From Actomonas aquatica (GTDB taxonomy: Bacteria > Verrucomicrobiota > Verrucomicrobiia > Opitutales > Opitutaceae): DNA of 64,000 nt. Where the stretch lies: the NCBI RefSeq assembly GCF_019679435.2, contig NZ_CP139781.1, positions 4,001,753 to 4,065,752 of the forward strand, in the 5' to 3' direction. The notes under the pieces were generated by a model, which worked only from the letters and a program-made list of their open reading frames with translations, did not search any database and was not told where the DNA came from. The position numbers and the translations under genes are program-made. How positions within the stretch are numbered: the first letter of the stretch is position 1; each line of letters starts with the position of its first letter. Positions 1 through 51,183 of the stretch are shown here, in pieces.

Positions 1-2
1 AG

Positions 3-3000
3 AACGCCAACGTCTCCACCGGCGACGCCGCCACCATCACCTACACCGCCGACACCGCTGGCATCATCATGGCCGACGGCACCACGACCACCACGGTCAC
101 CGGCGACATCACTTACACCGCCGCGACCAACGTCGCGCTCTCCCGCCTCCTCAGCACCGACGGTAACCTCACCGTCACCGCCACCGCTGGTGCCATCACG
201 GACAACACCCTCGCCGAGTCCACCAACCTGAGCACCTCCGCGCTCGCGACCCTCACGGCCGCGACGGGGATTGGAGCGACGGGGGCAGCAGACATCGACA
301 CGGCCGTCGGCTCCCTCACGGGTCGCAACACGACTTCGGGCGGGATCGTGATCGAGGAAGACGACGCGCTGACGATCACGCCGGCAGGCCTGATCAACGA
401 CGCGAGCGGGCAGCCGATCATCCTGACGACGGAAGCGGGCACGCTGACGATCACGGGCGTGATCACGGCGACGGGCGCGGGCAAGATCCGCCTGAGCGTG
501 GCCGGAGCGACGTCCGACATCATCACGAGTGCCGCGATCAGCACGGGCAGCGGCCCGATCAGCCTGATCGCCGCGCGCAGCATCAATCTCAATGCCGGCA
601 CCTCGATCGCCACGACCGGCGCCGGCACGATCGACCTCGAAGCGACGGCCGGCTCGCTCACCCTCTCCGACAACGTGGCAGTGACCACCGCCGGCGGAAA
701 CATCCGCTTGCTGGCGCAAATCGACGTGACGCTGTCGGGCCTGAACGCGGCGAGCGGCAACATCTCGGTGACGGCGACGACCGGCTCGATCGCCGACGCC
801 GGCGAAACCCTCACCGACCTCACCGCGACGGCCACGCGCCTGTGGGCGGCGATCGGCATCGGCACGGCCGACGCGATCGACACGAACATCGCGACCCTGG
901 CCGCCGCCGCGACGACCGGTGGCATCCGGATCAGCGAGGAAGACGACCTCACCATTGGCACCGTGGCCGCCGTGCCGGTCAGCCGCGTGACGACGGCCGA
1001 CACGACCACGACCGCGACCAATACCGCGTCGACCTCGGACCTCGAAGCGACGACCGGCGCCACCGAGATCACCTCGCTGGCCGGCTCGATCCTGCTGACC
1101 GACGGGGTGGACGCCGACACCCGCGCGATCCAGTCGACGACCGGCGACATCACGCTGACCGCGGCGAACAACATCACCTTCGAAGCCTCGATCGAATCGA
1201 CCTCGGGCAACCTGAGTCTGACCGCGCAGACCGGCGGTATCATCGACAACACGGTCACCGAAACCGCGCTGCTGATCACCACGACCGACGCGACGCTCAC
1301 CGCGGCGACCGGCATCGGCAGCGCGAACGCGGCCGACATCGATACGACGGTCGGGCGCATCACCCTCACCAACACGACCAGCGGCGGCATCTTCATCCAC
1401 GAAACCGCCACGCTGACCCTCCTCGGTGCGCAGACCCAAGCCGGCAACGGCCCGATCTCGATCCTGGTCACGACCGGCGACCTGCTCACCACCGGCGCAG
1501 TCACCGCGCACGGCTCGGGCAATATCTTCATCCAAGCGGCCGCCGGCAACGCGACCCTGCAAGCCGACCACACGTCCACCAGCGGCCACCTCACCGTCCT
1601 CGCCGCCCAGACCCTCACCCTCGAAGCGGACCTCAGCACCGGCACGACCGGCACGGTGGACTTGGAAGCCAACGCGATCAGCGCCATCGCCACGGCCGAC
1701 ATCACCACGGCCGACGGCGACGTCCGCCTGCTCGCCACCACCAACATTATCCTCGGCGGCGTCATCACGACCAACACCGAGGTCTCACTCACCGCGACCA
1801 CCGGCTCGATCACCGACGTCGATACCGACAACACGGTCGACATCGTCTCCAACAAGCTCCGCATCGTGGCCGGCGTCGGAGCCGGCGAATCCACCAACCA
1901 CCTGGAAACCACCACCGGCACCTTGTCGGCGCGCGCGACCTCGGGCGGCCTGTTCCTGACCGAGACCGATGCGCTCATTATCGACGACGTGGCGGTCACG
2001 GTGCAAAAGGTGGGCGTCGACACCGGCGTCACCCCGACGACCGACGCCACTCAGTCCGACCTGATCACGACTGCAGGCAACGGCTCGATCGTCCTCATCA
2101 CCGGCGGCGACCTCACCTTGGAAGACGGCACGGCCACGGCGAACAACCGCGCGATCGAGGCCAACGGCACCGGCAACATCCTCCTTTCCACGACCGGCAC
2201 GATTACGGCCAACGCCGACACGCTCGCGGGCACCGGCCACATCAGCGTCATCGCCTCCGACACGATCACGCTCAACGCGACGGCCGATATCGAGACCGGC
2301 GGCACGGGCACGATCAACTTGGAGGCCACCAGCGGCTCGATCACCCAAGCCGACAACAGCCGCATCACCTCGGCCACCGGCGACATCCGCTTGCTCGCCA
2401 ACGTGGACGTTACCCTCGGTGGTATCACCACGGACGCGAACGCGTCCGTCACTGCCTCAACCGGCCAGGTTGTCGACGCTGGCGACGTGAGCGGCGGCGA
2501 AGACATCAACGCGGTGGGCCTGCGGATGGTGGCCGGCCTCGGCATCGCCGGAGCGACGACCCACCTCGAAACGCAGGTCACGACGCTCACCGCACGCGCC
2601 ACCTCTGGCGGCATCTACCTTACCGAAACCGACAGCCTCGGAATCGACGACGTCGCGGTGACGATCCAGCAAGTCGACACCGACGCGACGGTCGACCCGG
2701 TTACGGACGCCACGCAGTCCGACGTCATGACGACGGCCGGCGACGGCAATATCGTCCTCGTTACCGGCGGCGACCTGCTCATCAACGACGGCACGGCCGC
2801 TACCGATGACATCGGCGTCCAGGCTGACGGTGCCGGTAACATCCTGCTGTCCACGACCGGCACGATCACCTCGAACGTGGATGTCAACTCGACCACGGGT
2901 CACATCACGCTGATCGCGTCCAACTCCATCTCGCTCACCGACACGGCCGACGTGCGCACGGGCGGCACGGGCACCATCAATCTCGAAGCGACGACCGGTA

Positions 3001-6000
3001 GCATCACGCAGGACGACAACAGCCGGATCATCAGTGACGCTGGTGAAATCCGCCTCCTGGCGAACGTGAACATCACGCTGGGCGGCATCACGACCAACAC
3101 CGACGCCTCGCTCACGGCGACCACCGGCTCGATCATTGATGCTGGCGACGCGTTTGGCGGCGAAGACGTCATTGCGGCAGGCCTGCGCCTGGTGGCCGGC
3201 CTCGGCATCGCCGGACCGACGACGCACCTTGAAACGCAGGTGACGACGCTCACCGCACGCGCCACCTCCGGCGGCATTTACCTTACCGAAACCGACAGCC
3301 TCACGATCGACGACGTCGCGGTGACGATCCAGCAGGTCGACACCGATGCGACGGTCGACCCGGTGACCGACGCGACGCAGTCCGACGTCATGACGACGGC
3401 CGGCGACGGCAACATCGTGCTGGTTACCGGCGGCGACCTCTTGATCAACGACGGCACGGCCGCGACCGACGACATCGGCGTCCAAGCCGACGGTGCGGGT
3501 AACATCCTGCTGTCCACGACCGGCACGATCACCTCGAACGTCGATGTGAACAGCACCACGGGTCACATTACGCTCGTCGCCTCCGACTCGATCTCGCTCA
3601 CCGACTCGGCTGACATCCGCACCGACGGCGGAGCGGGCACGATCAATCTCGAAGCGACGACCGGTAGCATCACGCAGGACGACAACAGCCGGATCATCAG
3701 CAACACCGGTGAAGTCCGCCTGATCGCGAACGTGAACATTACGCTGGGCGGCATCACGACCAACACCGACGCGTCGCTCACCGCCACCACCGGCTCGATT
3801 ATTGATGCTGGCGACGCGTTTGGCGGCGAAGACGTGAACGCCCTGGGCCTGCGCCTGTGGGCCGGCCTCGGTATCGGTGGAGCGAATACGCACATCGAAA
3901 CGGCCGTCACGACGCTGACCGCGCGTGCGACTAGCGGCGGCATCTACCTTACCGAAACCGACAGCCTCACGATCGACGACGTCGCGGTGACGATCCAGCA
4001 GGTCGACACGGATGCGACGATCGACCCGGTTACCGACGTCACGCAGTCCGACGTCTTCACCACCGGCGGCGACGGCAACATCGTGCTCATCACCGGCGGC
4101 GACCTGCTCATCAACGACGGCACGGCGGCGACCGACGACACGGGCGTCCAGGCGCACGGCGCGGGTAACATCCTGCTGTCCACGACCGGCACGATCACGA
4201 GCCACGTCGACGTCAACTCGACCACGGGTCACATCACGCTGATCGCGTCCGACTCCATCTCGCTTACCGACTCGGCCGACATCCGCACGGGCGGCACGGG
4301 CACGATCAATCTCGAAGCGACCACCGGTAGCATCACGCAGGACGACAACAGCCGGATCATCAGTGACGCTGGCGAAATCCGCCTCCTGGCCAACGTGAAC
4401 ATCGTCCTTGGCGGTATCACGACCAACACCGACGCCTCGCTCACGGCGACCACCGGATCGATCACCGACGCGGGTGACGCCTTCGGCGGCGAAGATGTGA
4501 TCGCGGTGGGCCTGCGCCTGGTGGCGGGTATCGGCATCGCCGGTCCGACCACGCACATCGAAACGTTGATCACGACGCTGAGCGCACGCGCCACCAGCGG
4601 CGGCATCTACCTTACCGAAACCGACAGCCTCACGATCGATGACGTCGCGGTGACGATCCAGCAGGTCGACACCGATGCGACGATCGACCCGGTCACGGAT
4701 GCGACCCAGTCCGACGTCATGACCACGGCCGGCGACGGCAACATCGTCTTGGTCACTGGCGGCGATCTGCTGATCAACGACGGCACCGCGCTCACCGACG
4801 ACATCGGCGTCCAAGCTGACGGCGCGGGTAACATCCTGCTGTCCACGACGGGCACGATCACCTCGAACGTGGATGTCAACAGCACCACGGGTCACATCAC
4901 CCTGGTCGCGTCCGACTCCATCTCTCTCACCGATACGGCCGACATCCGCACGGGCGGCACGGGCACCATCAATCTCGAAGCGACCACCGGTAGCATCACG
5001 CAGGACGACAACAGCCGCCTGATCACGGCCAATGGCGACATCCGCCTGCTCGCGAATGTGAACATCGTGCTCGGTGGCATCACGACCAACGTGAACGCGT
5101 CGCTCACGGCGACCAACGGCTCGATCACGGATGCCGGCGACGTGAGCGGTGGCGAAGACGTGAACGCCGCGGGCCTGCGCCTGTGGGCGGCGATTGGTGC
5201 GGGTGAATCAAGCGCACACCTGGAGACTGCGGTCGATACGCTGAGCGCGCGTGCAACCTCGGGCGGCGTATTTATTGATGAAACCGACGCGCTCGTAATC
5301 GACGACGTCGCCGTGACGATCCAGCAAGTCGACACCGACGCGACGGTCGACCCGGTCACGGATGCGACGCAGTCCGACGTCATGACGACGGCCGGCGACG
5401 GCAATATCGTCCTGGTTACCGGCGGCGACCTCTTGATCAACGACGGCACGGCTGCGGCCGACAACGCCGGCATCGCCGCGCACGGCACGGGTAACATCCT
5501 GCTGTCCACGACGGGCACGATCACCAGCAACGTCGATATCAGCAGCGGCACCGGCCACATCAGCTTGATCGCCTCCGACTCGATCACGCTGAACGCGACT
5601 GTGGATGTGACGACGGCCGGCACGGGCACGATTAACCTTGAAGCGACCACCGGTAGCATCACGCAGGCCGACAACAGCCGCCTCACCACGGCCGATGGCG
5701 ACATCCGCCTCCTCGCCAACGTGGACATCACGCTCGGTGGCCTCACCACCAACGTGAATGCGTCGCTCACCGCGACCACCGGCTCGATCATCGATGCCGG
5801 CGACGCCTTCGGCGGGGAAGACATCAACGCCGCGGGTCTGCGGATGGTGGCGGGAATCGGCATCGCCGGCCCGACGACCCACCTCGAAACCGCGGTCACG
5901 ACGCTCACCGCGCGCGCCACCTCGGGCGGCATCTATCTTACCGAAACCGACAGCCTCACCATCGACGACGTCTCTGTGACGATCGAGCAGGTCGACACGG

Positions 6001-9000
6001 ACGCGACGACCGACACCGTCACGGACGCCACGCAGTCCGACGTGATGACGACGGCTGGCGACGGCTCAATCGTCCTGGTGACCGGTGGTGATCTGATGAT
6101 CAACGACGGCACGGCCGCGACCGACGACATCGGCGTCCAAGCCGACGGCGCGGGTAACATCCTGCTGTCCACGACGGGCACGATCACCTCGAACGTGGAT
6201 GTCAACAGCACCACGGGCCACATCACGCTGGTCGCGTCCGACTCCATCTCTCTCACCGATACGGCCGACATCCGCACGGGCGGCACCGGAACGGTGAACC
6301 TCGAAGCGACGACCGGTAGCATCACGCAGGACGACAACAGCCGGATCATCAGCGCGACCGGCGACATCCGCCTGCTCGCCAATGTGGACATCACCTTGGG
6401 CGGCATCACGACAGGCGTGAATGCTTCGCTCACCGCCACGACCGGTAGCATCACCGACGCTGGCGACGCCTTCGGCAACGAAGACATCATCGCGGCGGGT
6501 CTGCGGATGGTGGCCGGAATCGGCATCGCCGGCCCGACGACCCACATCGAAACGGCCGTCACGACGCTGACCGCGCGCGCCACCTCTGGCGGCATCTACC
6601 TTACCGAAACCGACAGCCTCACCATAGACGACGTCTCTGTGACGATCGAGCAGGTCGACACCGACGCCACGACCGACACCGTCACGGACGCCACCCAATC
6701 CGACGTCATGACGACGGCCGGCGACGGCAACATCGTGCTCATCACCGGTGGCGACCTGCTGATCAACGACGGCACCGCGCTCACCGACGACATCGGCGTC
6801 CAAGCCGACGGTGCGGGTAACATCCTGCTGTCCACCACCGGCACGATCACCTCGAACGTGGATGTCAACAGCACCACGGGCCACATCACGCTGGTCGCGT
6901 CCGACTCCATCTCTCTCACCGATACGGCCGACATCCGCACGGGCGGCACCGGAACGGTGAACCTCGAAGCGACGACCGGTAGCATCACGCAGGACGACAA
7001 CAGCCGGATCATCTCGGTCAGCGGCGACATCCGTCTGCTCGCCAATGTCGACATCACCTTGGGCGGAATCACCACCAACGTGAATGCGTCGCTCACCGCG
7101 ACCACCGGATCGATCATCGACGCCGGCGACGCCTTCGGTGGCGAAGACATCATCGCGGCGGGTCTGCGGATGGTGGCCGGTATCGGCATCGCGGGTCCGA
7201 CGACCCACATTGAAACCCTGGTGACGACGCTCACCGCGCGCGCCACCTCCGGCGGCATCTACCTTACCGAAACCGACAGCCTCACGATCGACGACGTCGC
7301 GGTCACGATCCAGCAGGTCGACACCGATGCGACGATCGACCCGGTCACCGACGTGACCCAGTCTGACGTGATGACGACGGCTGGCGACGGTGACATCATC
7401 CTGGTGACCGGCGGCGATCTGCTCATTAATGACGGCACGGCGGCGACCGACGACACGGGCATCAGCGCGGACGGGGCAGGGGACATCCTGCTGTCCACGA
7501 CCGGCACCATTACCAGCAACGTCGATATCACTAGCGGCACGGGTCACATCACGCTGGTCGCGTCCGACAGCATCTCTCTCACCGATAGCGCCGACATCCG
7601 CACGGGCGGCACGGGCACGATCAACCTCGAAGCGACCACCGGTAGCATCACGCAGGACGACAACAGCCGGATCATCTCCGATACTGGCGAAGTCCGCCTG
7701 GTCGCCGACATCGACATCGTCCTCGGCGGCATCACGACCAACACCGACGCCTCGCTGACGGCGACCACCGGCTCGATCACCGATGCGGGTGATGTGAGCG
7801 GCGGCGAAGACATCATTGCTTCCGGTCTGCGCCTGGTGGCTGGCCTCGGTATCGGTGGAGCGAATACGCACATCGAAACGGCGGTCACGACGCTCACCGC
7901 GCGCGCGACCTCGGGCGGCATCTACCTTACCGAAACCGACAGCCTCACCCTCGACGACGTCGCGGTGACGATCGAGCAGGTCGACACGGACGCGACGACC
8001 GACTCGGTCACCGATGCGACGCAATCCGACGTCATGACGACGGCCGGCGACGGCAACATCGTCTTGGTCACCGGCGGCGACCTGCTCATTAACGACGGCA
8101 CGGCCGCGACCGACGACATCGGCGTCCAGGCTGACGGCGCGGGTAACATCCTGCTGTCCACCACCGGCACGATCACGAGCAACGTGGATGTGAACAGCAC
8201 CACGGGTCACATCACGCTGGTCGCGTCCGACAGCATCTCTCTCACCGATAGCGCCGACATCCGCACGGGCGGCACGGGTACGATCAACCTCGAAGCGACC
8301 ACCGGTAGCATCACGCAGGACGACAACAGCCGGATCGTCAGCGCGACCGGCGACATCCGCCTGTTCGCCAACGTGGACATCACCTTGGGCGGTATCACCA
8401 CGGGCGTGAATGCGTCCCTCACCGCCACGACCGGCTCGATCACGGACGCTGGCGACGCGGCTGGTGGCGAAGATGTCATTGCAGCGGGCCTGCGCTTGGT
8501 GGCCGGCCTCGGCATCGGCGGTGCCACGACCCACCTTGAAACGCAGGTGACGACGCTCACCGCGCGCGCCACCTCCGGCGGCATCTACCTTACCGAAACC
8601 GACGCCCTCACCATCGACGACGTCGCGGTGACGATCGAGCAGGTCGCTACCGACGCGACGACCGCCACCGTCAATGACGCCACCCAGTCCGACGTGATGA
8701 CGACGGCTGGCGACGGCGACATCATCCTGGTGACCGGCGGCGATCTGATGATCAACGACGGCACGGCGGCGACCGACGACACGGGAATTAGCGCGGACGG
8801 GGCAGGGGACATCCTGCTGTCCACGACCGGCACCATTACCAGCAACGTCGATATCACTAGCGGCACGGGTCACATCACGCTGGTCGCGTCCGACAGCATC
8901 TCTCTCACCGATAGCGCCGACATCCGCACGGGCGGCACGGGCACGATCAACCTCGAAGCGACCACCGGTAGCATCACGCAGGACGACAACAGCCGGATCA

Positions 9001-15422: not shown

Positions 15423-15424
15423 CC

Positions 15425-15520
15425 ATGACCGTAGATGCCAAAAATTTACCTTCTTTTGCGTTGTCAGTGGCGAGTGCCGCCAGCTTCCTAAAACCCCTCA
15501 AGCGAGGAGAATACGTTTGA
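15425..15520 (+). CDS. Candidate 31-residue small protein between the two giant genes
   Basis: ATG lies two bases after the TAG stop of the upstream giant gene. The TGA stop overlaps the TTG start of the next gene as TTGA, so translation could be coupled on both sides. The product begins MTVDAKNLPSFALSV, has a mildly hydrophobic Ala/Ser/Leu middle and ends in a basic segment 'KPLKRGEYV'. Its ATG sits where the downstream propeller gene's ATG sits relative to the end of the second giant gene: both follow the shared 'tctacgtcgt' by 6-9 bases. It may therefore be the relic of a signal-peptide start left by duplication. The GAGGAGA that would serve the next gene lies inside it. No family was recognised, and it may be only a coupling device or chance ORF. 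Confidence 0.4.
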   Translation: MTVDAKNLPSFALSVASAASFLKPLKRGEYV

Positions 15521-24500: not shown

Positions 24501-27500
24501 CATCCTGCTGTCCACGACGGGCACGATCACCTCGAACGTGGATGTCAACAGCACCACGGGTCACATCACCCTGGTCGCGTCCGACTCCATCTCTCTCACC
24601 GATACGGCCGACATCCGCACGGGCGGCACGGGCACCATCAATCTCGAAGCGACCACCGGTAGCATCACGCAGGACGACAACAGCCGCCTGATCACGGCCA
24701 ATGGCGACATCCGCCTGCTCGCGAATGTGAACATCGTGCTCGGTGGCATCACGACCAACGTGAACGCGTCGCTCACGGCGACCAACGGCTCGATCACGGA
24801 TGCCGGCGACGTGAGCGGTGGCGAAGACGTGAACGCCGCGGGCCTGCGCCTGTGGGCGGCGATTGGTGCGGGTGAATCAAGCGCACACCTGGAGACTGCG
24901 GTCGATACGCTGAGCGCGCGTGCAACCTCGGGCGGCGTATTTATTGATGAAACCGACGCGCTCGTAATCGACGACGTCGCCGTGACGATCCAGCAAGTCG
25001 ACACCGACGCGACGGTCGACCCGGTCACGGATGCGACGCAGTCCGACGTCATGACGACGGCCGGCGACGGCAATATCGTCCTGGTTACCGGCGGCGACCT
25101 CTTGATCAACGACGGCACGGCTGCGGCCGACAACGCCGGCATCGCCGCGCACGGCACGGGTAACATCCTGCTGTCCACGACGGGCACGATCACCAGCAAC
25201 GTCGATATCAGCAGCGGCACCGGCCACATCAGCTTGATCGCCTCCGACTCGATCACGCTGAACGCGACTGTGGATGTGACGACGGCCGGCACGGGCACGA
25301 TTAACCTTGAAGCGACCACCGGTAGCATCACGCAGGCCGACAACAGCCGCCTCACCACGGCCGATGGCGACATCCGCCTCCTCGCCAACGTGGACATCAC
25401 GCTCGGTGGCCTCACCACCAACGTGAATGCGTCGCTCACCGCGACCACCGGCTCGATCATCGATGCCGGCGACGCCTTCGGCGGGGAAGACATCAACGCC
25501 GCGGGTCTGCGGATGGTGGCGGGAATCGGCATCGCCGGCCCGACGACCCACCTCGAAACCGCGGTCACGACGCTCACCGCGCGCGCCACCTCGGGCGGCA
25601 TCTATCTTACCGAAACCGACAGCCTCACCATCGACGACGTCTCTGTGACGATCGAGCAGGTCGACACGGACGCGACGACCGACACCGTCACGGACGCCAC
25701 GCAGTCCGACGTGATGACGACGGCTGGCGACGGCTCAATCGTCCTGGTGACCGGTGGTGATCTGATGATCAACGACGGCACGGCCGCGACCGACGACATC
25801 GGCGTCCAAGCCGACGGCGCGGGTAACATCCTGCTGTCCACGACGGGCACGATCACCTCGAACGTGGATGTCAACAGCACCACGGGCCACATCACGCTGG
25901 TCGCGTCCGACTCCATCTCTCTCACCGATACGGCCGACATCCGCACGGGCGGCACCGGAACGGTGAACCTCGAAGCGACGACCGGTAGCATCACGCAGGA
26001 CGACAACAGCCGGATCATCAGCGCGACCGGCGACATCCGCCTGCTCGCCAATGTGGACATCACCTTGGGCGGCATCACGACAGGCGTGAATGCTTCGCTC
26101 ACCGCCACGACCGGTAGCATCACCGACGCTGGCGACGCCTTCGGCAACGAAGACATCATCGCGGCGGGTCTGCGGATGGTGGCCGGAATCGGCATCGCCG
26201 GCCCGACGACCCACATCGAAACGGCCGTCACGACGCTGACCGCGCGCGCCACCTCTGGCGGCATCTACCTTACCGAAACCGACAGCCTCACCATAGACGA
26301 CGTCTCTGTGACGATCGAGCAGGTCGACACCGACGCCACGACCGACACCGTCACGGACGCCACCCAATCCGACGTCATGACGACGGCCGGCGACGGCAAC
26401 ATCGTGCTCATCACCGGTGGCGACCTGCTGATCAACGACGGCACCGCGCTCACCGACGACATCGGCGTCCAAGCCGACGGTGCGGGTAACATCCTGCTGT
26501 CCACCACCGGCACGATCACCTCGAACGTGGATGTCAACAGCACCACGGGCCACATCACGCTGGTCGCGTCCGACTCCATCTCTCTCACCGATACGGCCGA
26601 CATCCGCACGGGCGGCACCGGAACGGTGAACCTCGAAGCGACGACCGGTAGCATCACGCAGGACGACAACAGCCGGATCATCTCGGTCAGCGGCGACATC
26701 CGTCTGCTCGCCAATGTCGACATCACCTTGGGCGGAATCACCACCAACGTGAATGCGTCGCTCACCGCGACCACCGGATCGATCATCGACGCCGGCGACG
26801 CCTTCGGTGGCGAAGACATCATCGCGGCGGGTCTGCGGATGGTGGCCGGTATCGGCATCGCGGGTCCGACGACCCACATTGAAACCCTGGTGACGACGCT
26901 CACCGCGCGCGCCACCTCCGGCGGCATCTACCTTACCGAAACCGACAGCCTCACGATCGACGACGTCGCGGTCACGATCCAGCAGGTCGACACCGATGCG
27001 ACGATCGACCCGGTCACCGACGTGACCCAGTCTGACGTGATGACGACGGCTGGCGACGGTGACATCATCCTGGTGACCGGCGGCGATCTGCTCATTAATG
27101 ACGGCACGGCGGCGACCGACGACACGGGCATCAGCGCGGACGGGGCAGGGGACATCCTGCTGTCCACGACCGGCACCATTACCAGCAACGTCGATATCAC
27201 TAGCGGCACGGGTCACATCACGCTGGTCGCGTCCGACAGCATCTCTCTCACCGATAGCGCCGACATCCGCACGGGCGGCACGGGCACGATCAACCTCGAA
27301 GCGACCACCGGTAGCATCACGCAGGACGACAACAGCCGGATCATCTCCGATACTGGCGAAGTCCGCCTGGTCGCCGACATCGACATCGTCCTCGGCGGCA
27401 TCACGACCAACACCGACGCCTCGCTGACGGCGACCACCGGCTCGATCACCGATGCGGGTGATGTGAGCGGCGGCGAAGACATCATTGCTTCCGGTCTGCG

Positions 27501-30500
27501 CCTGGTGGCTGGCCTCGGTATCGGTGGAGCGAATACGCACATCGAAACGGCGGTCACGACGCTCACCGCGCGCGCGACCTCGGGCGGCATCTACCTTACC
27601 GAAACCGACAGCCTCACCCTCGACGACGTCGCGGTGACGATCGAGCAGGTCGACACGGACGCGACGACCGACTCGGTCACCGATGCGACGCAATCCGACG
27701 TCATGACGACGGCCGGCGACGGCAACATCGTCTTGGTCACCGGCGGCGACCTGCTCATTAACGACGGCACGGCCGCGACCGACGACATCGGCGTCCAGGC
27801 TGACGGCGCGGGTAACATCCTGCTGTCCACCACCGGCACGATCACGAGCAACGTGGATGTGAACAGCACCACGGGTCACATCACGCTGGTCGCGTCCGAC
27901 AGCATCTCTCTCACCGATAGCGCCGACATCCGCACGGGCGGCACGGGTACGATCAACCTCGAAGCGACCACCGGTAGCATCACGCAGGACGACAACAGCC
28001 GGATCGTCAGCGCGACCGGCGACATCCGCCTGTTCGCCAACGTGGACATCACCTTGGGCGGTATCACCACGGGCGTGAATGCGTCCCTCACCGCCACGAC
28101 CGGCTCGATCACGGACGCTGGCGACGCGGCTGGTGGCGAAGATGTCATTGCAGCGGGCCTGCGCTTGGTGGCCGGCCTCGGCATCGGCGGTGCCACGACC
28201 CACCTTGAAACGCAGGTGACGACGCTCACCGCGCGCGCCACCTCCGGCGGCATCTACCTTACCGAAACCGACGCCCTCACCATCGACGACGTCGCGGTGA
28301 CGATCGAGCAGGTCGCTACCGACGCGACGACCGCCACCGTCAATGACGCCACCCAGTCCGACGTGATGACGACGGCTGGCGACGGCGACATCATCCTGGT
28401 GACCGGCGGCGATCTGATGATCAACGACGGCACGGCGGCGACCGACGACACGGGAATTAGCGCGGACGGGGCAGGGGACATCCTGCTGTCCACGACCGGC
28501 ACCATTACCAGCAACGTCGATATCACTAGCGGCACGGGTCACATCACGCTGGTCGCGTCCGACAGCATCTCTCTCACCGATAGCGCCGACATCCGCACGG
28601 GCGGCACGGGCACGATCAACCTCGAAGCGACCACCGGTAGCATCACGCAGGACGACAACAGCCGGATCATCTCGGTCAGCGGCGACATCCGTCTCCTCGC
28701 CAACGTGAACATCACCCTGGGTGGTATCACCACGGACGCGAACGCGTCCGTCACTGCCTCAACCGGCCAGGTTGTGGACGCCGGCGACGTGAGCGGCGGT
28801 GAAGACGTGAACGCGGCGGGTCTGCGCCTGGTGGCCGGCCTCGGTATCGGTGGCGCGAATACGCACCTTGAAACCGCCGTCGACACCCTCACCGCACGCG
28901 CCACCTCCGGTGGCATCTACCTTACTGAAACCGACGCCCTCACCATCGACGACGTCGCGGTCACGATCGAACAGGTCGACACCGATGCGACGACCGCCAC
29001 CGTCACCGACGCCACCCAATCCGACGTGATGACGACGGCCGGCGATGGCTCCATCGTCCTCATCACCGGCGGCGACCTGCTCATCAACGACGGCACCGCG
29101 CTCACCGATGACATCGGTGTCCAGGCTGACGGCGCGGGTAACGTCCTGCTGTCCACCACCGGCACGATCACCTCGAACGTCGATGTGAACAGCGCGACGG
29201 GCCACATCACCCTGGTGGCGTCCGACAGCATCTCGCTCACCGACTCGGCCGACCTGCGCACGGGCGGCACGGGCACGATCAACTTGGAAGCGACCGCCGG
29301 TAGCATCACGCAAGCCGACAACAGCCGCATCATCAGCGCGGCCGGCGACATCCGCTTGGCTGCCAACGTGAACATTACCCTGGGTGGCATCACCACGGAC
29401 GCGAACGCGTCGCTCACCGCCACGACCGGCTCGATCACTGACGCTGGCGACGTGAGCGGTGGCGAAGACGTGATCGCCGCGGGCCTGCGCCTGGTGGCCG
29501 GCCTCGGCATCGGTGGCGCGACGACGCACCTCGAAACCGCCGTCGACACGCTCACCGCGCGCGCCACCTCCGGCGGCATCTACCTTACCGAAACCGACAG
29601 CCTCGTAATCGACGACGTCGCCGTCTCGATCGAGCAAGTCGGCACCGACGCGACCACCGCCACCGTCAACGACGTGGCCCAGTCCGACGTGATCACCACG
29701 GCCGGCAACGGCGCGATCGTGCTCTCCACGGGCGGCGACCTGACGCTGAACGACGGCACGGCGGCCGCCGACAACACCGCGCTCTCCGCGCACGGCACGG
29801 GCAACGTGCTGCTGCAAACGAGCGCCGGTTCCATCACGGCCAACGCCGACCTGCTCTCGGGCACCGGCCACGTCACGCTGACGAGTGCGGACTCGATCAC
29901 CTTCACCGCCACCGCCGACCTGCGCACCGCGGGCACGATCACGCTCACCGCGCAAACCGGCGCGATCACCCAAGCCGACGACAGCCGCATCGCCTCGACC
30001 GCGGGTGCGATCCAACTGAGCGCGGCGACCGACATCACGCTCGGCGGCCTCACCACCACGGGCAACGTGGCCGTGACCGCGACCACCGGTTCCATCCTCG
30101 ATGCCGGCGACGCCTTCGGCGGCGAAGACATCCTTGCCTCCGGCCTGCGCCTGTGGGCCGGCACCGGCATCGGTGGCGCGACCACCCACCTGGAAATCAA
30201 CGCCACGACCCTCACGGCGACCGCGACCAGCGGCGGCCTCTACCTCTCTGAAACCGATACGCTCACGATCGGCACCGTCACGGTCACCACTCAAGCGGTG
30301 GACAGCGCCGCGGGCATCACCGCCGTGACCGCGACCGCCCAGTCGGGTCTGTCCACCACGGCCGGCGACGGCAACGTGGTCCTCGCCACCGGCGGCGCGC
30401 TCACTGTCACCACCGCGGTCACCACCCACGGCGCGGGCAACCTCCTGCTCGCCACCACCGGCTCGATTGCAATCGCCGCCAACCTCGCTTCCACCAGCGG

Positions 30501-33500
30501 TCACCTGACCCTGACCGCGACCGACTCGATCACCCTGGCCGCTGCGACCACGGTCACGACCGGTGGCACCGGCACGCTCACCGCGATCGCCACCACCGGC
30601 GCGATTACCCAAGCCGACGACAGCCGCTTTATTACCGCCACCGGCGACATCGCGCTCACCGCCGCCACGGACCTCACCCTCGGCGGCCTCACCACCGACG
30701 CGAACGCCTCGCTCACCGCCACGACCGGCTCGGTCCTGGACGCCGGTGACGCCTTCGGTGACGAAGACGTGATCGCCGCCGGCCTGCGCCTGACCGCCGG
30801 CCTCGGCGCGGGCACCAGCACCGACACTCTGGAAACCGCCGTCACGACCCTGGCCGCGACCGCGACCTCCGGCGGCCTCTTCCTCCTGGAAACCGACGGC
30901 CTCACCATCGGCACGGTTGCTACCACCACGCAAACCGTCGGCACCGACGCCACGACCACCACGACCACCACCACCGACCTCACGGGTCTAAGCACCACGG
31001 CTGGCTCCGGTGCGATCGTGCTCACCACCGGCGGCGACCTGACCCTCAGCGCCCCGGTTACCACCGCCGCGGCCGGCAACGTCCTGCTTGCGGTCACCGG
31101 CACGCTCACCGCCGATGCTGTCATCAGCAGCACGACCGGCCACCTCACGCTCACCGCGACCGACACCCTGGCCCTCAACGCCAACCTCAGCACCGCGGGC
31201 ACCGTGACCGTCACCGCCACCACCTTCACCCAGACCGACGGCACCCGCATCACCACGACCGGCGATGTGGCCATCGAGACCACCGGCGACCTCACCCTCG
31301 CGGGCATCACCAGCAGCGGCAACGTGGCCCTCACCGCGGGCAACATCTTCGATGGCGGCGACACCGGTGGCGCCGATGTGGTCGCCAGCGGCCTGCGTGC
31401 TGTGGCGACCGACGGCATCGGCTCGGCCACCGACGCCCTCGAAACCACCCTCGCGACTCTCGCCGCGACCGCAACCGGCGGCGGTATCCACCTCTCCAAT
31501 ACCACTGCGCTCACCGTGGGCAGCGTGGCGGTCAGCACCGCGCAGGTGGGCACCGACGGGACCACCACCGCCGCCGACCTGGCCGCCCTCGCCGGTGTCA
31601 CCACCACCGCCGCCGACGGCGTGATCGCGCTCACCACCGCCGGCACCCTCACCATCAGCGCCGAGGTCACCGCCCACGGCGCGGGCACGATCGCCCTCAC
31701 GACCACCACCGGCGACATCGCCTTGGGCGCGCTCGTGAGCTCCACCTCCGGTGACCTCACCCTCAACGCTGCGGCCCGCGTGCTCGACACCACCGCCACT
31801 GAAACCCCGCTGCTCATCACCACCGGTGCGCTCGACCTGACCGCGACCGGCGGCCTCGGCCAAACCGGCCTGGGCGACCTCGACGTGTCCGCCAGCAGCC
31901 TCTCGCTCACCAACAACGGCGCCGGCTCGATTTACCTCAAGTCCCACGCCACCACGACCCTCTCGGCCACCAGCCTCACGCCCTCGGGCTCGCTCTTCTT
32001 CACCCAAGCCACCGGCAACCTCACCGTGGGCGGCGCCCTCACCGTGGCCCAGGGCAACCTGACCCTGCGCGGCGCGGGCACGATCGCACTCAACAACGCC
32101 CCGGTCAGTGCCGCCGGCACGATCACGATCCAGGGCGGCACGGTCACCGCCACCGCCTCCTCGCTCACCTCCACCGCCGGTGACATCAAACTGGCCGCCG
32201 CCTCGAGCCTCAGCCTCGACGCTAGCTCCAGCCTCACCGCCGCCGGTGACCTCTCAATCGTGAGCGGCGGCAACGCGACCCTCGCGCAGGCGAGCACCCC
32301 GGGCCTCCTGGATATCCGCGTGGCGGGCAACCTGAGCCGCGCCGGTGGTGAACTCCAATCGAACCAGCTGCGCCTGACGGTCGGTGGCAGCGCGGGCAGC
32401 TCGGGCAACCCGATCATCACGCGCACCAGCGGCACGGCCGATGTGCGTGTGAGCGGTGCGACCTATATACTGGAGCAAAACGCCCTGTCCGCAGGCCGCG
32501 GCGGCGTGACCCTGGCGACCACCTCGGGTGGCAGCTCGGTGCTCAACGTGGCCGGTGGCAGCCTCACCTCGACCGGCGGTGGCATCACCGCGACCGGCTC
32601 GGGCACGCTCATCCTGCAAAGCGGCGGCAGCCTCACGATCGGCACCAGCGTGACCAGCAACTCGGGCAGCATCACGGTCAACGCCGGCTCCATCGTCGAT
32701 GGCACCGGTGATGAAGGTGCCTTGTTCGTGACGCCCAACGGCACGCTCACCCTCAACGCTTCCAGCGGCATCGGCAGCGCCGGTTCCGGAGACATCGACT
32801 TTACCGCCGCCGCCGTGGGGGCCTCCACCTCCACCGGCAACCTGAACCTCTCGACCACGGGCTCGACCACCACCACCGGCCTCACGGTGGGCTCCGGCTC
32901 GGGCACCCTGCAGATCGCCGCCGGCGATGACCTCACCGTCTCGGGCACGATCTCCCACGGTGGCTCGGGCGCGGTCAACGTCACCGCCTCGGACAACCTC
33001 AACGCCTCGGGTGCGATCACCGGTGGCACCGGCACGGTCACGGTCACCGCGGGCACCAATGCCAACGTGGGCCGCGTGTCCACCGCGGGCACCGGCGCCG
33101 TCACCGTCACCGCTGGCGGCAGCCTGAGCACCGGTCAGGTCAGCACCGCCACGGGCACCCTCGATCTTAACGCCGGTGGCACGGTCACGGCCAATGGCAC
33201 CGTCTCCAGCGGCTCGGGCCGCATCACGGTCCAAGGCGGCGGCAACGTCACCACCACCACGATCAGCTCCACCTCGGGCAACATCGGGGTGAGCTCCACC
33301 TCCGGCCGCATCCAGACCGGCAGCGTGAGCACCGGCAGCGCCGGCACGCTTACCTTCAACGCCGCCACCACGCTGTCGACCGGAGCGCTCACCAGCGCCA
33401 CCGGCCGGATCCAACTGAGCTCCGGCGGCGCCACCACCGTGAACGGCGCGGTGAACACCACCTCGGGTGCCTTCACCCTGACCAGCGGAGGTAACGCCAC

Positions 33501-35085
33501 CACCGGCACGCTCACCAGCACCACTGGCGCGATCAGCGTCACCGCGGCCGGCTCGGCCACCCTCGGTGCGATCACCAGCCAAAGCGGCAACGTGAGCCTC
33601 ACCGCGCAGGGCGGTAGCCTGACGCTGTCCACCGTGGCCACCGGCAACGCCGGCACGCTCACGGCCACCGCCGCCACCACCTTTACGGCCACCAGCCTCA
33701 CGACCGGCACCGGAGCGATCAACGTGACCGCCGCCGGCAACCTCACCAGTGGCGCGATCAGCAGCCAGAGCGGCGCGGTCACCGCGCGCAGCACCGGCGG
33801 AGCGACCCAGCTGTCCACCGTGGCCACCAGCGGGGCGATCACGCTCTTCGGTCAAACCGGCCTCACCGTGACCGGTGCGATCACCGGTGGCGCGAATGCG
33901 ATCACCCTTACCAGCGCAGCCGGAGCGATCAACGCGGCTGGTGCGGTGACGGGCACCGGCGGCCTCAGCGCCACTGCCGCCACCACGCTTAACCTGCACA
34001 GCTACACCGGCGCGGGTGCCGTGAGCCTGCAAAGCGGCGGCAACCTCCAAAGCGGCGCGATCAGCCTCACCTCCGGCAACATCGCCGTTACCTCCACCAG
34101 CGGCAGCGTGACCCTGGGCACCGTGTCCACCGCTGGCGCGAGCACGCTCACCCTGCAGTCCGCCGGCGCGCTCACCACCGGAGCGCTGGCCACCCAGACC
34201 GGCCGCATCTCGCTGACCGGTGGCAACACCACCACTGGCGCGATCAGCACCACCACCGGAGCGCTCACCGTCACCGCCGCGGGCACCTTCCGTGCCACTG
34301 GCGCCCTCACCACCACCAGTGGAGCGATCAACCTGTCTGCCACCGGCAACGTCACCCTGGGCACCGTCTCCAGCAGCACTGGAGCGATCACTCTGGCGAG
34401 CACCGGCGGCAGCCTGAGCGTGGGCAACGTCGTGACCACCGGGGCAGTCGACCTGGACGCCCAAGGCAACCTGGTGCTCACCGGCACGCTGCAAGGCGGC
34501 TCGGGCGCGGTGACGCTGACCAGCGCCACCGGCCAAGTGACCCTCGAAGGGGCGGTCACCACCACCACCGCCTCTTTGAACCTGCAAAGCGCCGGCGCGC
34601 TGGTGCTGCGCGGCGGCTTTACCTCGACCCAAGGCGGCACGCTGAGCCTGCGCTCCACCGGCTCGACGGTGAACGTGGGCCGGGTGCAGACCACCGGTCG
34701 GGTGGACCTGGAAGCGGCCGGCACGCTGACGGTTGAAGAAGTGGTCGGCGGCGCAGGCGCCGTGAACCTGACCAGCACGGGCAGCTTCATCGAAATGACC
34801 GAGCGCATCTCCACGGGCACTGGAGCGATCACCCTGTGGGCCTACGGGGACGCCAAGCTGCACACCCTCAGCTCCTCCTCCGGCCTGATCAAAGTCACCT
34901 CCCAGACCGGCTCGATCACCAGAACCACCTCCGGCACCAACATCTTCGCTTCGGTCCAGCCTGTCTTCCAAGCTGCGAGGATCATTGACCTCACGGTTGA
35001 AGCGGCATCGGCCTCGATCAACGGCACCGTCGTTTATCGTCGCGATTCCGCCACCACCATTAACATCTACGTCGTCTTCTCATGA
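15517..35085 (+). CDS. Giant LEPR-XLL-type beta-strand-repeat surface protein (6522 aa)
   Basis: The start is taken at TTG 15517. It has GAGGAGA at 15504-15510 with 6-nt spacing, and it places the 'LEQRVLL' motif at residues 20-26, the usual place for the LEPR-XLL signature of very large bacterial repeat proteins (Gln replaces Pro). An ATG at 15361 is in frame but lies inside the previous gene. Residues of about 60-170 are an acidic Asp/Glu/Ala/Val linker. Beta-strand repeats such as 'GAVTITGNVVITKATDITF' then run to about residue 1470, unique to this copy. Residues of about 1561-6479 appear identical to the upstream giant. The tail 'TTINIYVVFS' resembles the first giant's tail but has diverged. 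The stop overlaps the next start as ATGA. There is no C-terminal anchor or barrel. An exported adhesin or matrix component is inferred; the LEPR-XLL function is unproven. Confidence 0.88.
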   Translation: MISGTHNTSPRKSAFLIEGLEQRVLLSATPMAVPFEPVVPVGAVQVESPMSETSAEVMAATAGEDVSLFSLADLPTIVMEASTEDDAAAAGADVVGDEGSVEGDDAPAVDVIDENGAADPTESTDDEVVVADDSGADSSDEPTTIADDELTQLAESLFGPGAGDTTTMIGGIGSEVILQGEHEGETVTLLSDNTLLVGDEIFILSPLQTQNLVILGDGSTTTISTNISGTSQSISDTVEVDGDRSITATAGSIIISNPGGQIDGNGAGLADSLTMSATGSISVANGVGQNKALQNLTMTAGGSIDIGGATTLTGNLTVNNATTVRFRGAVTITGNVVITKATDITFDGAVTITGSLTIAEGASITFNGNTAVAGTVSIGSAVDYTKIASIYFANNARFDFGGLASIYVNGAITFGNAVGGLGGAYTPDGLTIGLNATLTFNNNINLGSSSPFSVVNAAEVTLTGSLTAGDVTMSNVAGNLILAATTTVRSIDLTSTGSGASTSLRVNTLEVGDGNAILTANQINLLGTISDTGAQSTLTIKPYTVSRPIVVGQSPPSTTTPTFNNRLDLEASEIGLILPGFAEVNIGDAAAGTGTVYLAYMGSQISTGEYYNKTQIFGGDIIVTRDHDINATVPEFRLVARTGDITVNERIGYAVNNTSADRNDWVRLEAAGDIIVNKGIYALDRISLTAGQGTGTGTITVASTGFIYTTGTTGSNLRIELVAGLTSGNINLAAPSAEAALLSAAGDNSSIVLLAASGSITQTDGRLVAELFTAQSSGTTSVRTTVERVGAATLAGEIFADATPRTIDGVLITGSGAFVQTESDDVQVDQITTHTGGIDLTTTNSGTITIDSIISNTGGSVVLTADGAIADLTPANDATANISTTGNLTFTAQTGVGATGDADLDIAVTGVQGTNAVSGDIVLQDPSTLTIFGALATLAGNGNIQVTADAGTLAANADVTAHGSGNLTLTASTGALNQAASTTASSTSGNLDLDGDTVTQSGALSTGDTGTIDVDADVGAITMTDGATTDTVDGAIAYTAATNVDLSDIESATGNLTITATAGSITDNTAAETANLTTTGDTVLTADTGIGGSGAADIDTTIATLAATNNTSGDIVIQESDGLVINGTGVRTLAGDGNIDIDVDAGALTNDAVVTAHGAGTITLNTDAGAYTANANVSSTSGAIAVTADSVAQNADVTTTTGTIDVTADTADVVMQDGTTTSTTTGAITVGAATDIDLSVINSTSGDLTLTATAGAITDNTAAETANLITTGQATLTAATGMGSGGGDADIDTTLSTLAATNTTSGNIFVHETDGLIINGTGLRTLDGNGNIDVDVDAGDLTVDSVVTAHGSGYVTLNTDVGTFTFNAAVSSTSGDLTFSADDIAQNADASTSIGAIVYTADVANITMADGTTTSTTTGTITFTAADSINLSAVTSTSGNLDLEATAGAITDNTLAEDANLSTSGLAELLAATGIGATGAADIDTAVGSLTGRNTTSGGIVIEEDDALTITPAGLINDASGQPIILTTEAGTLTITGVITATGAGKIRLSVAGATSDLITSAAISTGSGPISLIAARSINLNAGTSIATTGAGTIDLEATAGSLTLSDNVAVTTAGGNIRLLAQIDVTLSGLNAASGNISVTATTGSIADAGETLTDLTATATRLWAAIGIGTADAIDTNIATLAAAATTGGIRISEEDDLTIGTVAAVPVSRVTTADTTTTATNTASTSDLEATTGATEITSLAGSILLTDGVDADTRAIQSTTGDITLTAANNITFEASIESTSGNLSLTAQTGGIIDNTVTETALLITTTDATLTAATGIGSANAADIDTTVGRITLTNTTSGGIFIHETATLTLLGAQTQAGNGPISILVTTGDLLTTGAVTAHGSGNIFIQAAAGNATLQADHTSTSGHLTVLAAQTLTLEADLSTGTTGTVDLEANAISAIATADITTADGDVRLLATTNIILGGVITTNTEVSLTATTGSITDVDTDNTVDIVSNKLRIVAGVGAGESTNHLETTTGTLSARATSGGLFLTETDALIIDDVAVTVQKVGVDTGVTPTTDATQSDLITTAGNGSIVLITGGDLTLEDGTATANNRAIEANGTGNILLSTTGTITANADTLAGTGHISVIASDTITLNATADIETGGTGTINLEATSGSITQADNSRITSATGDIRLLANVDVTLGGITTDANASVTASTGQVVDAGDVSGGEDINAVGLRMVAGLGIAGATTHLETQVTTLTARATSGGIYLTETDSLGIDDVAVTIQQVDTDATVDPVTDATQSDVMTTAGDGNIVLVTGGDLLINDGTAATDDIGVQADGAGNILLSTTGTITSNVDVNSTTGHITLIASNSISLTDTADVRTGGTGTINLEATTGSITQDDNSRIISDAGEIRLLANVNITLGGITTNTDASLTATTGSIIDAGDAFGGEDVIAAGLRLVAGLGIAGPTTHLETQVTTLTARATSGGIYLTETDSLTIDDVAVTIQQVDTDATVDPVTDATQSDVMTTAGDGNIVLVTGGDLLINDGTAATDDIGVQADGAGNILLSTTGTITSNVDVNSTTGHITLVASDSISLTDSADIRTDGGAGTINLEATTGSITQDDNSRIISNTGEVRLIANVNITLGGITTNTDASLTATTGSIIDAGDAFGGEDVNALGLRLWAGLGIGGANTHIETAVTTLTARATSGGIYLTETDSLTIDDVAVTIQQVDTDATIDPVTDVTQSDVFTTGGDGNIVLITGGDLLINDGTAATDDTGVQAHGAGNILLSTTGTITSHVDVNSTTGHITLIASDSISLTDSADIRTGGTGTINLEATTGSITQDDNSRIISDAGEIRLLANVNIVLGGITTNTDASLTATTGSITDAGDAFGGEDVIAVGLRLVAGIGIAGPTTHIETLITTLSARATSGGIYLTETDSLTIDDVAVTIQQVDTDATIDPVTDATQSDVMTTAGDGNIVLVTGGDLLINDGTALTDDIGVQADGAGNILLSTTGTITSNVDVNSTTGHITLVASDSISLTDTADIRTGGTGTINLEATTGSITQDDNSRLITANGDIRLLANVNIVLGGITTNVNASLTATNGSITDAGDVSGGEDVNAAGLRLWAAIGAGESSAHLETAVDTLSARATSGGVFIDETDALVIDDVAVTIQQVDTDATVDPVTDATQSDVMTTAGDGNIVLVTGGDLLINDGTAAADNAGIAAHGTGNILLSTTGTITSNVDISSGTGHISLIASDSITLNATVDVTTAGTGTINLEATTGSITQADNSRLTTADGDIRLLANVDITLGGLTTNVNASLTATTGSIIDAGDAFGGEDINAAGLRMVAGIGIAGPTTHLETAVTTLTARATSGGIYLTETDSLTIDDVSVTIEQVDTDATTDTVTDATQSDVMTTAGDGSIVLVTGGDLMINDGTAATDDIGVQADGAGNILLSTTGTITSNVDVNSTTGHITLVASDSISLTDTADIRTGGTGTVNLEATTGSITQDDNSRIISATGDIRLLANVDITLGGITTGVNASLTATTGSITDAGDAFGNEDIIAAGLRMVAGIGIAGPTTHIETAVTTLTARATSGGIYLTETDSLTIDDVSVTIEQVDTDATTDTVTDATQSDVMTTAGDGNIVLITGGDLLINDGTALTDDIGVQADGAGNILLSTTGTITSNVDVNSTTGHITLVASDSISLTDTADIRTGGTGTVNLEATTGSITQDDNSRIISVSGDIRLLANVDITLGGITTNVNASLTATTGSIIDAGDAFGGEDIIAAGLRMVAGIGIAGPTTHIETLVTTLTARATSGGIYLTETDSLTIDDVAVTIQQVDTDATIDPVTDVTQSDVMTTAGDGDIILVTGGDLLINDGTAATDDTGISADGAGDILLSTTGTITSNVDITSGTGHITLVASDSISLTDSADIRTGGTGTINLEATTGSITQDDNSRIISDTGEVRLVADIDIVLGGITTNTDASLTATTGSITDAGDVSGGEDIIASGLRLVAGLGIGGANTHIETAVTTLTARATSGGIYLTETDSLTLDDVAVTIEQVDTDATTDSVTDATQSDVMTTAGDGNIVLVTGGDLLINDGTAATDDIGVQADGAGNILLSTTGTITSNVDVNSTTGHITLVASDSISLTDSADIRTGGTGTINLEATTGSITQDDNSRIVSATGDIRLFANVDITLGGITTGVNASLTATTGSITDAGDAAGGEDVIAAGLRLVAGLGIGGATTHLETQVTTLTARATSGGIYLTETDALTIDDVAVTIEQVATDATTATVNDATQSDVMTTAGDGDIILVTGGDLMINDGTAATDDTGISADGAGDILLSTTGTITSNVDITSGTGHITLVASDSISLTDSADIRTGGTGTINLEATTGSITQDDNSRIISVSGDIRLLANVNITLGGITTDANASVTASTGQVVDAGDVSGGEDVNAAGLRLVAGLGIGGANTHLETAVDTLTARATSGGIYLTETDALTIDDVAVTIEQVDTDATTATVTDATQSDVMTTAGDGSIVLITGGDLLINDGTALTDDIGVQADGAGNVLLSTTGTITSNVDVNSATGHITLVASDSISLTDSADLRTGGTGTINLEATAGSITQADNSRIISAAGDIRLAANVNITLGGITTDANASLTATTGSITDAGDVSGGEDVIAAGLRLVAGLGIGGATTHLETAVDTLTARATSGGIYLTETDSLVIDDVAVSIEQVGTDATTATVNDVAQSDVITTAGNGAIVLSTGGDLTLNDGTAAADNTALSAHGTGNVLLQTSAGSITANADLLSGTGHVTLTSADSITFTATADLRTAGTITLTAQTGAITQADDSRIASTAGAIQLSAATDITLGGLTTTGNVAVTATTGSILDAGDAFGGEDILASGLRLWAGTGIGGATTHLEINATTLTATATSGGLYLSETDTLTIGTVTVTTQAVDSAAGITAVTATAQSGLSTTAGDGNVVLATGGALTVTTAVTTHGAGNLLLATTGSIAIAANLASTSGHLTLTATDSITLAAATTVTTGGTGTLTAIATTGAITQADDSRFITATGDIALTAATDLTLGGLTTDANASLTATTGSVLDAGDAFGDEDVIAAGLRLTAGLGAGTSTDTLETAVTTLAATATSGGLFLLETDGLTIGTVATTTQTVGTDATTTTTTTTDLTGLSTTAGSGAIVLTTGGDLTLSAPVTTAAAGNVLLAVTGTLTADAVISSTTGHLTLTATDTLALNANLSTAGTVTVTATTFTQTDGTRITTTGDVAIETTGDLTLAGITSSGNVALTAGNIFDGGDTGGADVVASGLRAVATDGIGSATDALETTLATLAATATGGGIHLSNTTALTVGSVAVSTAQVGTDGTTTAADLAALAGVTTTAADGVIALTTAGTLTISAEVTAHGAGTIALTTTTGDIALGALVSSTSGDLTLNAAARVLDTTATETPLLITTGALDLTATGGLGQTGLGDLDVSASSLSLTNNGAGSIYLKSHATTTLSATSLTPSGSLFFTQATGNLTVGGALTVAQGNLTLRGAGTIALNNAPVSAAGTITIQGGTVTATASSLTSTAGDIKLAAASSLSLDASSSLTAAGDLSIVSGGNATLAQASTPGLLDIRVAGNLSRAGGELQSNQLRLTVGGSAGSSGNPIITRTSGTADVRVSGATYILEQNALSAGRGGVTLATTSGGSSVLNVAGGSLTSTGGGITATGSGTLILQSGGSLTIGTSVTSNSGSITVNAGSIVDGTGDEGALFVTPNGTLTLNASSGIGSAGSGDIDFTAAAVGASTSTGNLNLSTTGSTTTTGLTVGSGSGTLQIAAGDDLTVSGTISHGGSGAVNVTASDNLNASGAITGGTGTVTVTAGTNANVGRVSTAGTGAVTVTAGGSLSTGQVSTATGTLDLNAGGTVTANGTVSSGSGRITVQGGGNVTTTTISSTSGNIGVSSTSGRIQTGSVSTGSAGTLTFNAATTLSTGALTSATGRIQLSSGGATTVNGAVNTTSGAFTLTSGGNATTGTLTSTTGAISVTAAGSATLGAITSQSGNVSLTAQGGSLTLSTVATGNAGTLTATAATTFTATSLTTGTGAINVTAAGNLTSGAISSQSGAVTARSTGGATQLSTVATSGAITLFGQTGLTVTGAITGGANAITLTSAAGAINAAGAVTGTGGLSATAATTLNLHSYTGAGAVSLQSGGNLQSGAISLTSGNIAVTSTSGSVTLGTVSTAGASTLTLQSAGALTTGALATQTGRISLTGGNTTTGAISTTTGALTVTAAGTFRATGALTTTSGAINLSATGNVTLGTVSSSTGAITLASTGGSLSVGNVVTTGAVDLDAQGNLVLTGTLQGGSGAVTLTSATGQVTLEGAVTTTTASLNLQSAGALVLRGGFTSTQGGTLSLRSTGSTVNVGRVQTTGRVDLEAAGTLTVEEVVGGAGAVNLTSTGSFIEMTERISTGTGAITLWAYGDAKLHTLSSSSGLIKVTSQTGSITRTTSGTNIFASVQPVFQAARIIDLTVEAASASINGTVVYRRDSATTINIYVVFS
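20200..34955 (+). repeat. Copy 2 of a 14,756-bp direct duplication
   Basis: Partner of 531-15286. Colinear alignment continues outside the block on both sides without indels for the roughly 500 bases visible upstream. At the 3' end the last 42-44 codons are similar but diverged. Old paralogues homogenised by gene conversion therefore fit better than a fresh insertion. Confidence 0.9.
21647..30229 (+). repeat. Tandem array of about thirteen 663-bp coding units (second giant)
   Basis: Same array as in the first giant gene, unit for unit and variant for variant, at the 19,669-bp offset. The single 666-bp unit with the inserted 'DGGAG' codon is also shared (near 23290 here and 3625 in the first gene). 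Confidence 0.85.
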
Positions 35086-37556: not shown

Positions 37557-37625
37557 AGGCGTTCGTTGCTGCTGTATTGATCCTGGCCTGAATCGAGCTA
37601 ACGCTTGTTTCCGCTGGTCCTATCT

Positions 37626-37645
37626 GCGGGGCTACCCGCTTTCCT
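37626..37645 (+). terminator. Weak hairpin between propeller and barrel genes
   Basis: A 5-bp stem GCGGG/CCCGC with a GCTA loop is followed by TTTCCT. It could attenuate transcription into the barrel gene, but the T-run is poor. The rest of the 135-bp gap (37557-37691) shows no clear promoter. Confidence 0.2.
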
Positions 37646-37691
37646 ATTCACCGAACTGAACGCCCGAACCCGGATTCATTCCTTTTCACTC

Positions 37692-46952: not shown

Positions 46953-47014
46953 TGCGAGGCGATTTATGGACCGAGGGTTTAAGTTCAATGGGAGAGGCTT
47001 AGCGCGAGGGCGGA

Positions 47015-51052: not shown

Positions 51053-51183
51053 ATCGCAAGGGGGAGACGACGGGAGGAGCCGTCACGGAGGGGTCACGGC
51101 GTTGTCGGTCCTAAATGACAACCGACCGCGTCAAACCCGCCGCATTTTTTTTGGGGGGCGCGCGTGGTTGGGGGCGAACTGGA

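Follow-up and report, generated by a model that had tools for sequence, protein, structure and literature searches.

Two neighbouring giant genes of Actomonas aquatica share an exact 14.76-kb core, most likely kept alike by homologous exchange

The window, the whole stretch of DNA analysed here, comprises 64,000 bp of the Actomonas aquatica genome (G000 below) at G000:C1:4001753-4065752, contains no N, and lies in a contig of 6,109,182 bp that carries both copies of the repeat described here. It opens inside a giant gene, A, which is followed head to tail by a second giant gene, B, and then by genes for a YCF48-like protein and an outer-membrane β-barrel. All features listed are on the plus strand:

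1..15422 (+): 3' part of gene A in the window; stop-to-stop open reading frame without internal stop
387..530 (+): mosaic left edge, 128 identical bases (387-514) and then four differences
531..15286 (+): homogenised core copy 1, in gene A (about A residues 14022-18940); exact match to copy 2
15287..15422 (+): tail of A, a strongly diverged homologue of the B tail; TINIYVV near the end in both
15517..35085 (+): gene B; open reading frame from 15361, 6,574 codons
15559..15627 (+): LEPR-XLL N-terminal motif of B (NF012209); 21.1 bits (fragment from 15562) and 29.3 bits
16030..17640 (+): flank domain of B (residues 224-760), homologous to A residues 12654-13167; input of the tree
20200..34955 (+): homogenised core copy 2, in gene B; exact match to copy 1
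21400..29570, approximate (+): array of 221-residue (663-bp) repeats in the B core, its regularity broken at about 22600-23200
34956..35085 (+): tail of B, a strongly diverged homologue of the A tail
35082..37556 (+): YCF48-like/MBG protein, immediately after B; in G191 and G362 B is likewise followed by a relative
37605..38696 (+): outer-membrane β-barrel (Autotransporter beta-domain, PF03797); homologue, 35% identical, at the same place in G362

Only a fraction of gene A falls within the window, since the upstream sequence extends its open reading frame to 18,984 codons (genome 3960220-4017174), beginning 41.5 kb before the window at window position -41532. The likely start of B, chosen by eye, is the TTG at 15517, which stands behind GAGGAG and 94 bp past the A stop codon, and a consensus scan of 15200-15700 gave no promoter or terminator between the two genes. 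Residues 224-6573 of B align with residues 12628-18984 of A (93.8% overall), and at the sequence level B resembles the last third of A (about 6,360 residues). The LEPR-XLL domain of B is above the curated NF012209 cut-off of 17; gene A was not reported in the NF012209 searches of family and phylum genomes, and a similar motif at its N-terminus (IEPLETRLLLSA) was recognised by eye only. With this domain, this motif and a fitting size class, A and B are best described as putative tandem giants of the LEPR-XLL kind (NCBIfam NF012209, LEPR-8K) and are probably secreted. The repeat array in the core of B is indicated by an identity peak at lag 221, by the profile at lag 663 and by the alignment of eight overlapping two-unit windows.

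The sequence-only reading had described bases 531-15286 and 20200-34955 as a 14.76-kb repeat without visible change at a fixed offset of 19,669 bp, and base-by-base alignment bears this out exactly, with 14,756 bp and 0 mismatches; 531..15286 is the maximal exact match, and the identical tract makes up 75% of the open reading frame of B. Chance is excluded, since the probability of 0 differences in 14,756 sites is about 10^-1759 at 24% divergence. To the left of the block lies colinear but diverged sequence, with substitutions at 515, 519, 527 and 530 just outside the block and 76% identity at the fixed offset over bases 1-500. To the right the match is lost abruptly after 15286, within the last 45 codons; the tails beyond are homologous at the protein level and strongly diverged, and identity at the fixed offset (unaligned) is 22-31% from 15,501 on. 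Simple arithmetic on the coordinates places the start of both core copies at codon phase 0, and because they share this phase a crossover between them would delete or duplicate 19,669 bp and still leave the frames open.

Synonymous sites, on which the sequence-only reading had let its case for a homogenised core depend, change sharply at the block. The left flank (B residues 250-1519) has a dS of 0.642 and a dN of 0.197 (codon by codon; 1,017 synonymous sites), with dS between 0.49 and 1.13 in its 100-codon windows, and inside the block there are 0 differences at about 4,096 synonymous sites; a sharp dS step at tract edges was found both here and in G075 (see below). The flank dN/dS of about 0.31 does indicate constraint, as would be expected if purifying selection alone held the cores identical, but this explanation is refuted by some 4,096 unchanged synonymous sites beside flank windows with dS of 0.5-1.1, and we give it practically no credence: selection at the protein level cannot explain the step, and transfer between the copies can.

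A second case occurs in G075, a genome of another genus in the same family, where head-to-tail giants of 13,828 and 6,255 codons on a single contig share an exact core of 11,531 bp that ends 2 bp past the A stop codon. Its copies are 18.9 kb apart, in a tandem direct layout like that of G000. Just upstream of the core the two G075 genes align poorly (dN 0.6-0.8) and are possibly not positional homologues there; further upstream their flank domains are 70% identical. G075 encodes yet another giant, C, on the opposite strand at a distance of about 0.85 Mb, and this dispersed paralogue is a built-in control for the homogenisation of neighbours. Compared with the A/B core, C shows a mean of 26 differing columns per 300 bp (about 9%) as far as A CDS position ~37,540, and then, after a sharp step, 19 differing columns (about 0.5%) in the last ~3.9 kb; the corresponding dS values are 0.22-0.32 and, in the final tract, 0.009-0.025. 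The neighbours are thus identical and C has diverged, part of it having been homogenised earlier.

Exact identity across 14.8 kb would also fit merged copies, that is, an assembly artefact in which the real cores differ slightly (by up to ~1%) and one consensus was used for both. The region is evidently hard to assemble, since B of G075 crosses the contig origin, the contig being cut 59 bp before the repeat end (a hint that the assembler took the repeat as one node), and since contigs of G406 and G067 break within the region matching the part shared by A and B; two of the G067 contigs share their starting sequence, as unresolved repeats would produce. However, the flanks and tails in G000 differ between the copies on both sides, from which we infer that two copies must exist and that only one linear order fits. 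The G075 assembly, moreover, retained its 19 differing columns in the tract common with C, and we estimate that merging could mask about 1% but not a flank dS of 0.64. Such an artefact is quite improbable. We note that contig C6 of G067 (L130; 6,030 bp) is one open frame throughout, its start matching the end of C3 (L131; reversed) and its end the start of C2 (L049; reversed), a pattern like that of an in-frame, intragenic tandem loop left unresolved in assembly.

The flank domain of about 530 residues is present in both A and B of G000, G075, G191 and G233, and also in G067_A and G121_B; these give a tree of 10 rows, the partial or weak matches G406_A and G075_C having been excluded. In the tree G000_A pairs with G000_B (100/100) and G075_A with G075_B (100/99), and in G191 and G233, which belong to one genus, pairing is by gene (G191_A with G233_A, 99/97; G191_B with G233_B, 93/94). 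Paralogues are thus closer to each other than to their positional counterparts in G000 and G075 and not in G191/G233. AU tests, run without G121_B on groups picked after the tree was seen, reject the union of G000_A with G075_A (p-AU 0.003), that of the four A rows, G067_A outside (p 6e-6), and that of the four B rows (p 3e-41). As read from these alignments, the within-genome pairing in G000 and G075 is the signature of concerted evolution.

The order GAF-HlyD, M50-like, SecA-like, A, B, YCF48-like, β-barrel is common to G000 and G362, a genome of another family (the M50 matches being below or near the Pfam cut-off), and the order in G191 is SecA-like, a 1,411-codon frame, A, B, YCF48-like. 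Because this order extends to another family and in part to G191, the tandem A/B pair is probably old. In G191 and G233, A ends within about 200 residues past the flank domain, which leaves no room for a core; A may thus have gained its core from B independently in the lineages of G000 and G075, which would itself be transfer between neighbours, and the tree does not distinguish such separate gains from repeated conversion of an ancestral pair. Close outgroups are missing, since the C-terminal 461 residues of B have no match in the 7 same-genus genomes (0/7); among the 57 genomes searched they find, apart from their own, weak matches in G027 and G009 only.

The sharp dS step, the second case with its dispersed control and the within-genome pairing together support the proposal of the sequence-only reading that A and B are paralogues whose core was homogenised by conversion or unequal exchange. 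Sequence comparison indicates that sequence has been transferred between A and B, very recently for the core and longer ago for the flank domain. We consider it quite probable that ectopic homologous exchange, mainly gene conversion and possibly with cycles of unequal crossing-over, keeps the A and B cores alike, and that it has most likely acted more than once; such exchange would overwrite the 3' cores and let flank and tail drift apart. At least 14.76 kb would have been overwritten in the most recent event or events, with the mosaic edge at about 387-530 as left limit and the tail as right limit, presumably by RecA-type recombination between sister chromosomes. In this comparison of one genome per species, recurrence of the exchange within A. 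aquatica itself is plausible, the homogenisation of A and B could carry some benefit, and the repeat might be used to shrink or expand the giant proteins.

A single fresh event, in which the 3' part of B (core and some flank) was transferred once to the end of A, or in the opposite direction, overlaps with repeated exchange, so that the two are not exclusive. It would leave an identical picture in G000, where 0 differences show only that the last event was recent, and A can exist without a core, as it does in G191 and G233. Against it, the two G000 genes have homologous yet diverged flanks and tails (flank dS 0.64), so A and B shared homologous ends before the last event; core sequence is present in A of G000, G075 and G067; within-genome pairing extends to the flank domain and forms an older layer of this process; and the comparison of G075 A/B with C gives a further, older homogenised tract. 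That one copying accounts for everything is accordingly rather doubtful. Repeated exchange could also have proceeded by unequal crossing-over instead of conversion, through three tandem copies and a later contraction elsewhere, a sub-mechanism whose likelihood is again not exclusive of the others. Direct tandem copies 19.7 kb apart in one codon phase are an ideal substrate for this, and G075 has the same layout at 18.9 kb, but crossing-over between neighbours cannot yield the tract that G075 C, ~0.85 Mb away on the other strand, has in common with A/B. Conversion is favoured because this dispersed copy takes part, and crossing-over as the main route is somewhat unlikely.

Conversion between paralogues has been measured in E. 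coli in the rRNA operons and in another gene pair, which we take to be tuf. The rates per generation given there are 8.6e-6 per operon per donor for rRNA and 2e-8 for the other pair, and the mutation rate is ~1e-10 per bp (PMC8022953). By arithmetic from the latter, about 3e-6 differences per generation would arise between two 14.76-kb copies, and identity therefore needs a recent or a frequent event. These E. coli paralogues, like A and B, are described as kept alike by intragenomic conversion (PMC8022953), but they are genes of a few kb in dispersed places, and A/B encode repeat proteins with diverging ends. In mycobacteria gene conversion is reported between the tandem PE_PGRS17/18 genes and other paralogues (PMC1762029, PMC13061034), which are, like A and B, bacterial paralogues, some of them tandem and repeat-rich, that exchange sequence; the mycobacterial events are short, with a median of 101 bp according to PMC13061034, compared with 14.8 kb here. 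The Giant1-5 cluster of Apilactobacillus kunkeei likewise consists of consecutive genes for giant extracellular proteins homogenised by recombination, and the median length of its predicted tracts above 1 kb is 3.7 kb, with some exceeding 25 kb (PMC12863079). The homogenisation described there is apparent when strains are compared (according to its authors, both giant4-5 subtypes never occur together in one genome), and here it is between neighbours of one genome, in another phylum and another type of protein.

In the open-licence literature, the titles of the two papers that name LEPR-XLL mention no exchange between neighbours, and titles and abstracts gave no report of homogenised LEPR-XLL or verrucomicrobial giants. 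The process is known; the scale and the setting are new. Giant genes have seldom been studied past their size, and here two of them form a pair whose cores appear to have been overwritten, one from the other, in tracts of more than 10 kb. The recurrence of this pattern in a second genus makes the maintenance, lengthening and shortening of giant proteins testable in bacteria, and G075 offers a bacterial case in which homogenisation affects neighbours and spares most of a distant paralogue of that genome. The contig breaks described above are also a warning that assemblies can break at giant-gene loci.

LEPR-XLL matches were found in 8 of 61 family genomes and 40 of 381 phylum genomes. Twenty-seven giant loci, picked non-randomly by their size or tandem layout (26 match NF012209, all but G009), were compared, and five have an exact direct repeat of at least 1 kb: G000 (14,756 bp), G075 (11,531 bp), G362 (5,612 bp), G154 (3,596 bp) and G191 (2,091 and 1,465 bp). 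The G154 tract is bordered at each end by colinear sequence of 55-71% identity, as in G000, and the G362 tract has abrupt ends at a fixed offset. General instability of giant genes was considered and rejected, as no such repeat was found in the other 22 loci, among which G067, G406, G396, G213 and G261 have a frame truncated at a contig end or at the limit of the fetched stretch. Eight tandem pairs, with G000 treated separately, were compared for homology between A and B, and only in G075 does B have long homology to the end of A. The match covers 573 columns in G191, lies at both ends in G009 (47% and 28% identity) and extends over at most 100 N-terminal residues in G098 and G154; G362, G348 and G420 gave no B against A match at 1e-5. 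A rule that all LEPR-XLL tandem giants are homogenised was dropped on these results.

The neighbouring genes, together with the statement in PMC5177795 that surface proteins or PKS/NRPS are the products of over 90% of giant genes, suggest that A and B may be located at the cell surface. For B the Pfam scan listed one family, DUF4350, of which no individual stretch passed; the TPS secretion domain (PF05860) had no match in B from 15562 on, and it is carried by G348_B, which lies behind G348_A. No autotransporter barrel (PF03797) was detected in B at 27298-35082, the barrel being a separate gene downstream. An AlphaFold2 model of two repeat units is all-β (mean pLDDT 67.5, pTM 0.52), and a Foldseek search of it against the PDB gave 0 of 66 matches at E<=0.001, with β-helical proteins among the weak top rows. 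A polymorphic-toxin reading was discarded, as nothing in the part of PMC3482391 at hand fits these proteins.

Directly upstream of A lie genes for a short SecA-like ATPase (680 residues), an M50-like protein and a GAF-HlyD protein (genome 3953908-3960073, window about -47844 to -41679; L012, L057). G000 has other SecA genes, one of 1,028 codons at 2404470 and another short one at 2846479. The G362 neighbourhood also has HlyD and TolC-type genes. A short SecA ends less than 2 kb upstream of a same-strand LEPR-XLL gene in 16 of the 38 LEPR-XLL genomes tabulated (40 were searched; G377 and G396 are not in the tabulation), and G000 is absent from the 16 because A misses the NF012209 model. From this arrangement the short SecA looks like a dedicated exporter for LEPR-XLL giants, and in the open-licence literature we found no paper that names one. 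It is conceivable, if improbable, that A and B act as partners in building a single very long surface fibre, as subunits that need a matching core and are served by a dedicated exporter (the SecA-like ATPase, M50-like and GAF-HlyD genes, in G362 also the HlyD and TolC-type genes), with recurrent conversion keeping the cores identical while the LEPR ends and tails specialise; were this true, the pair would evolve as one unit, and coding tracts longer than 10 kb would be subject to a homogenisation system.

Several further observations concern G000. A second homogenised pair lies within gene A upstream of the window (genome 3973920-3975278 and 3979962-3981320); it consists of exact stretches of 429 bp and 929 bp one base apart, with a period of 6,042 bp, and its identity falls on the left to 92-95% and then ~70%, and ends abruptly at the fixed offset on the right. 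Another LEPR-XLL giant of 7,781 codons (genome 2854932-2878277; L046-L048) and its 7,221-codon homologue in G001 (230086-251751; L044, L045) have no long exact repeat; both terminate in a motif resembling ALEQPRAL/ALERPRAL, and each is followed, about 6.7 kb beyond its 3' end, by a short SecA. Finally, four consecutive large frames of 1,133-1,345 residues occupy window positions 43587-58703 on the minus strand; immunoglobulin-like domains abound in the three that were scanned, one of which also has sub-threshold EF-hand matches.
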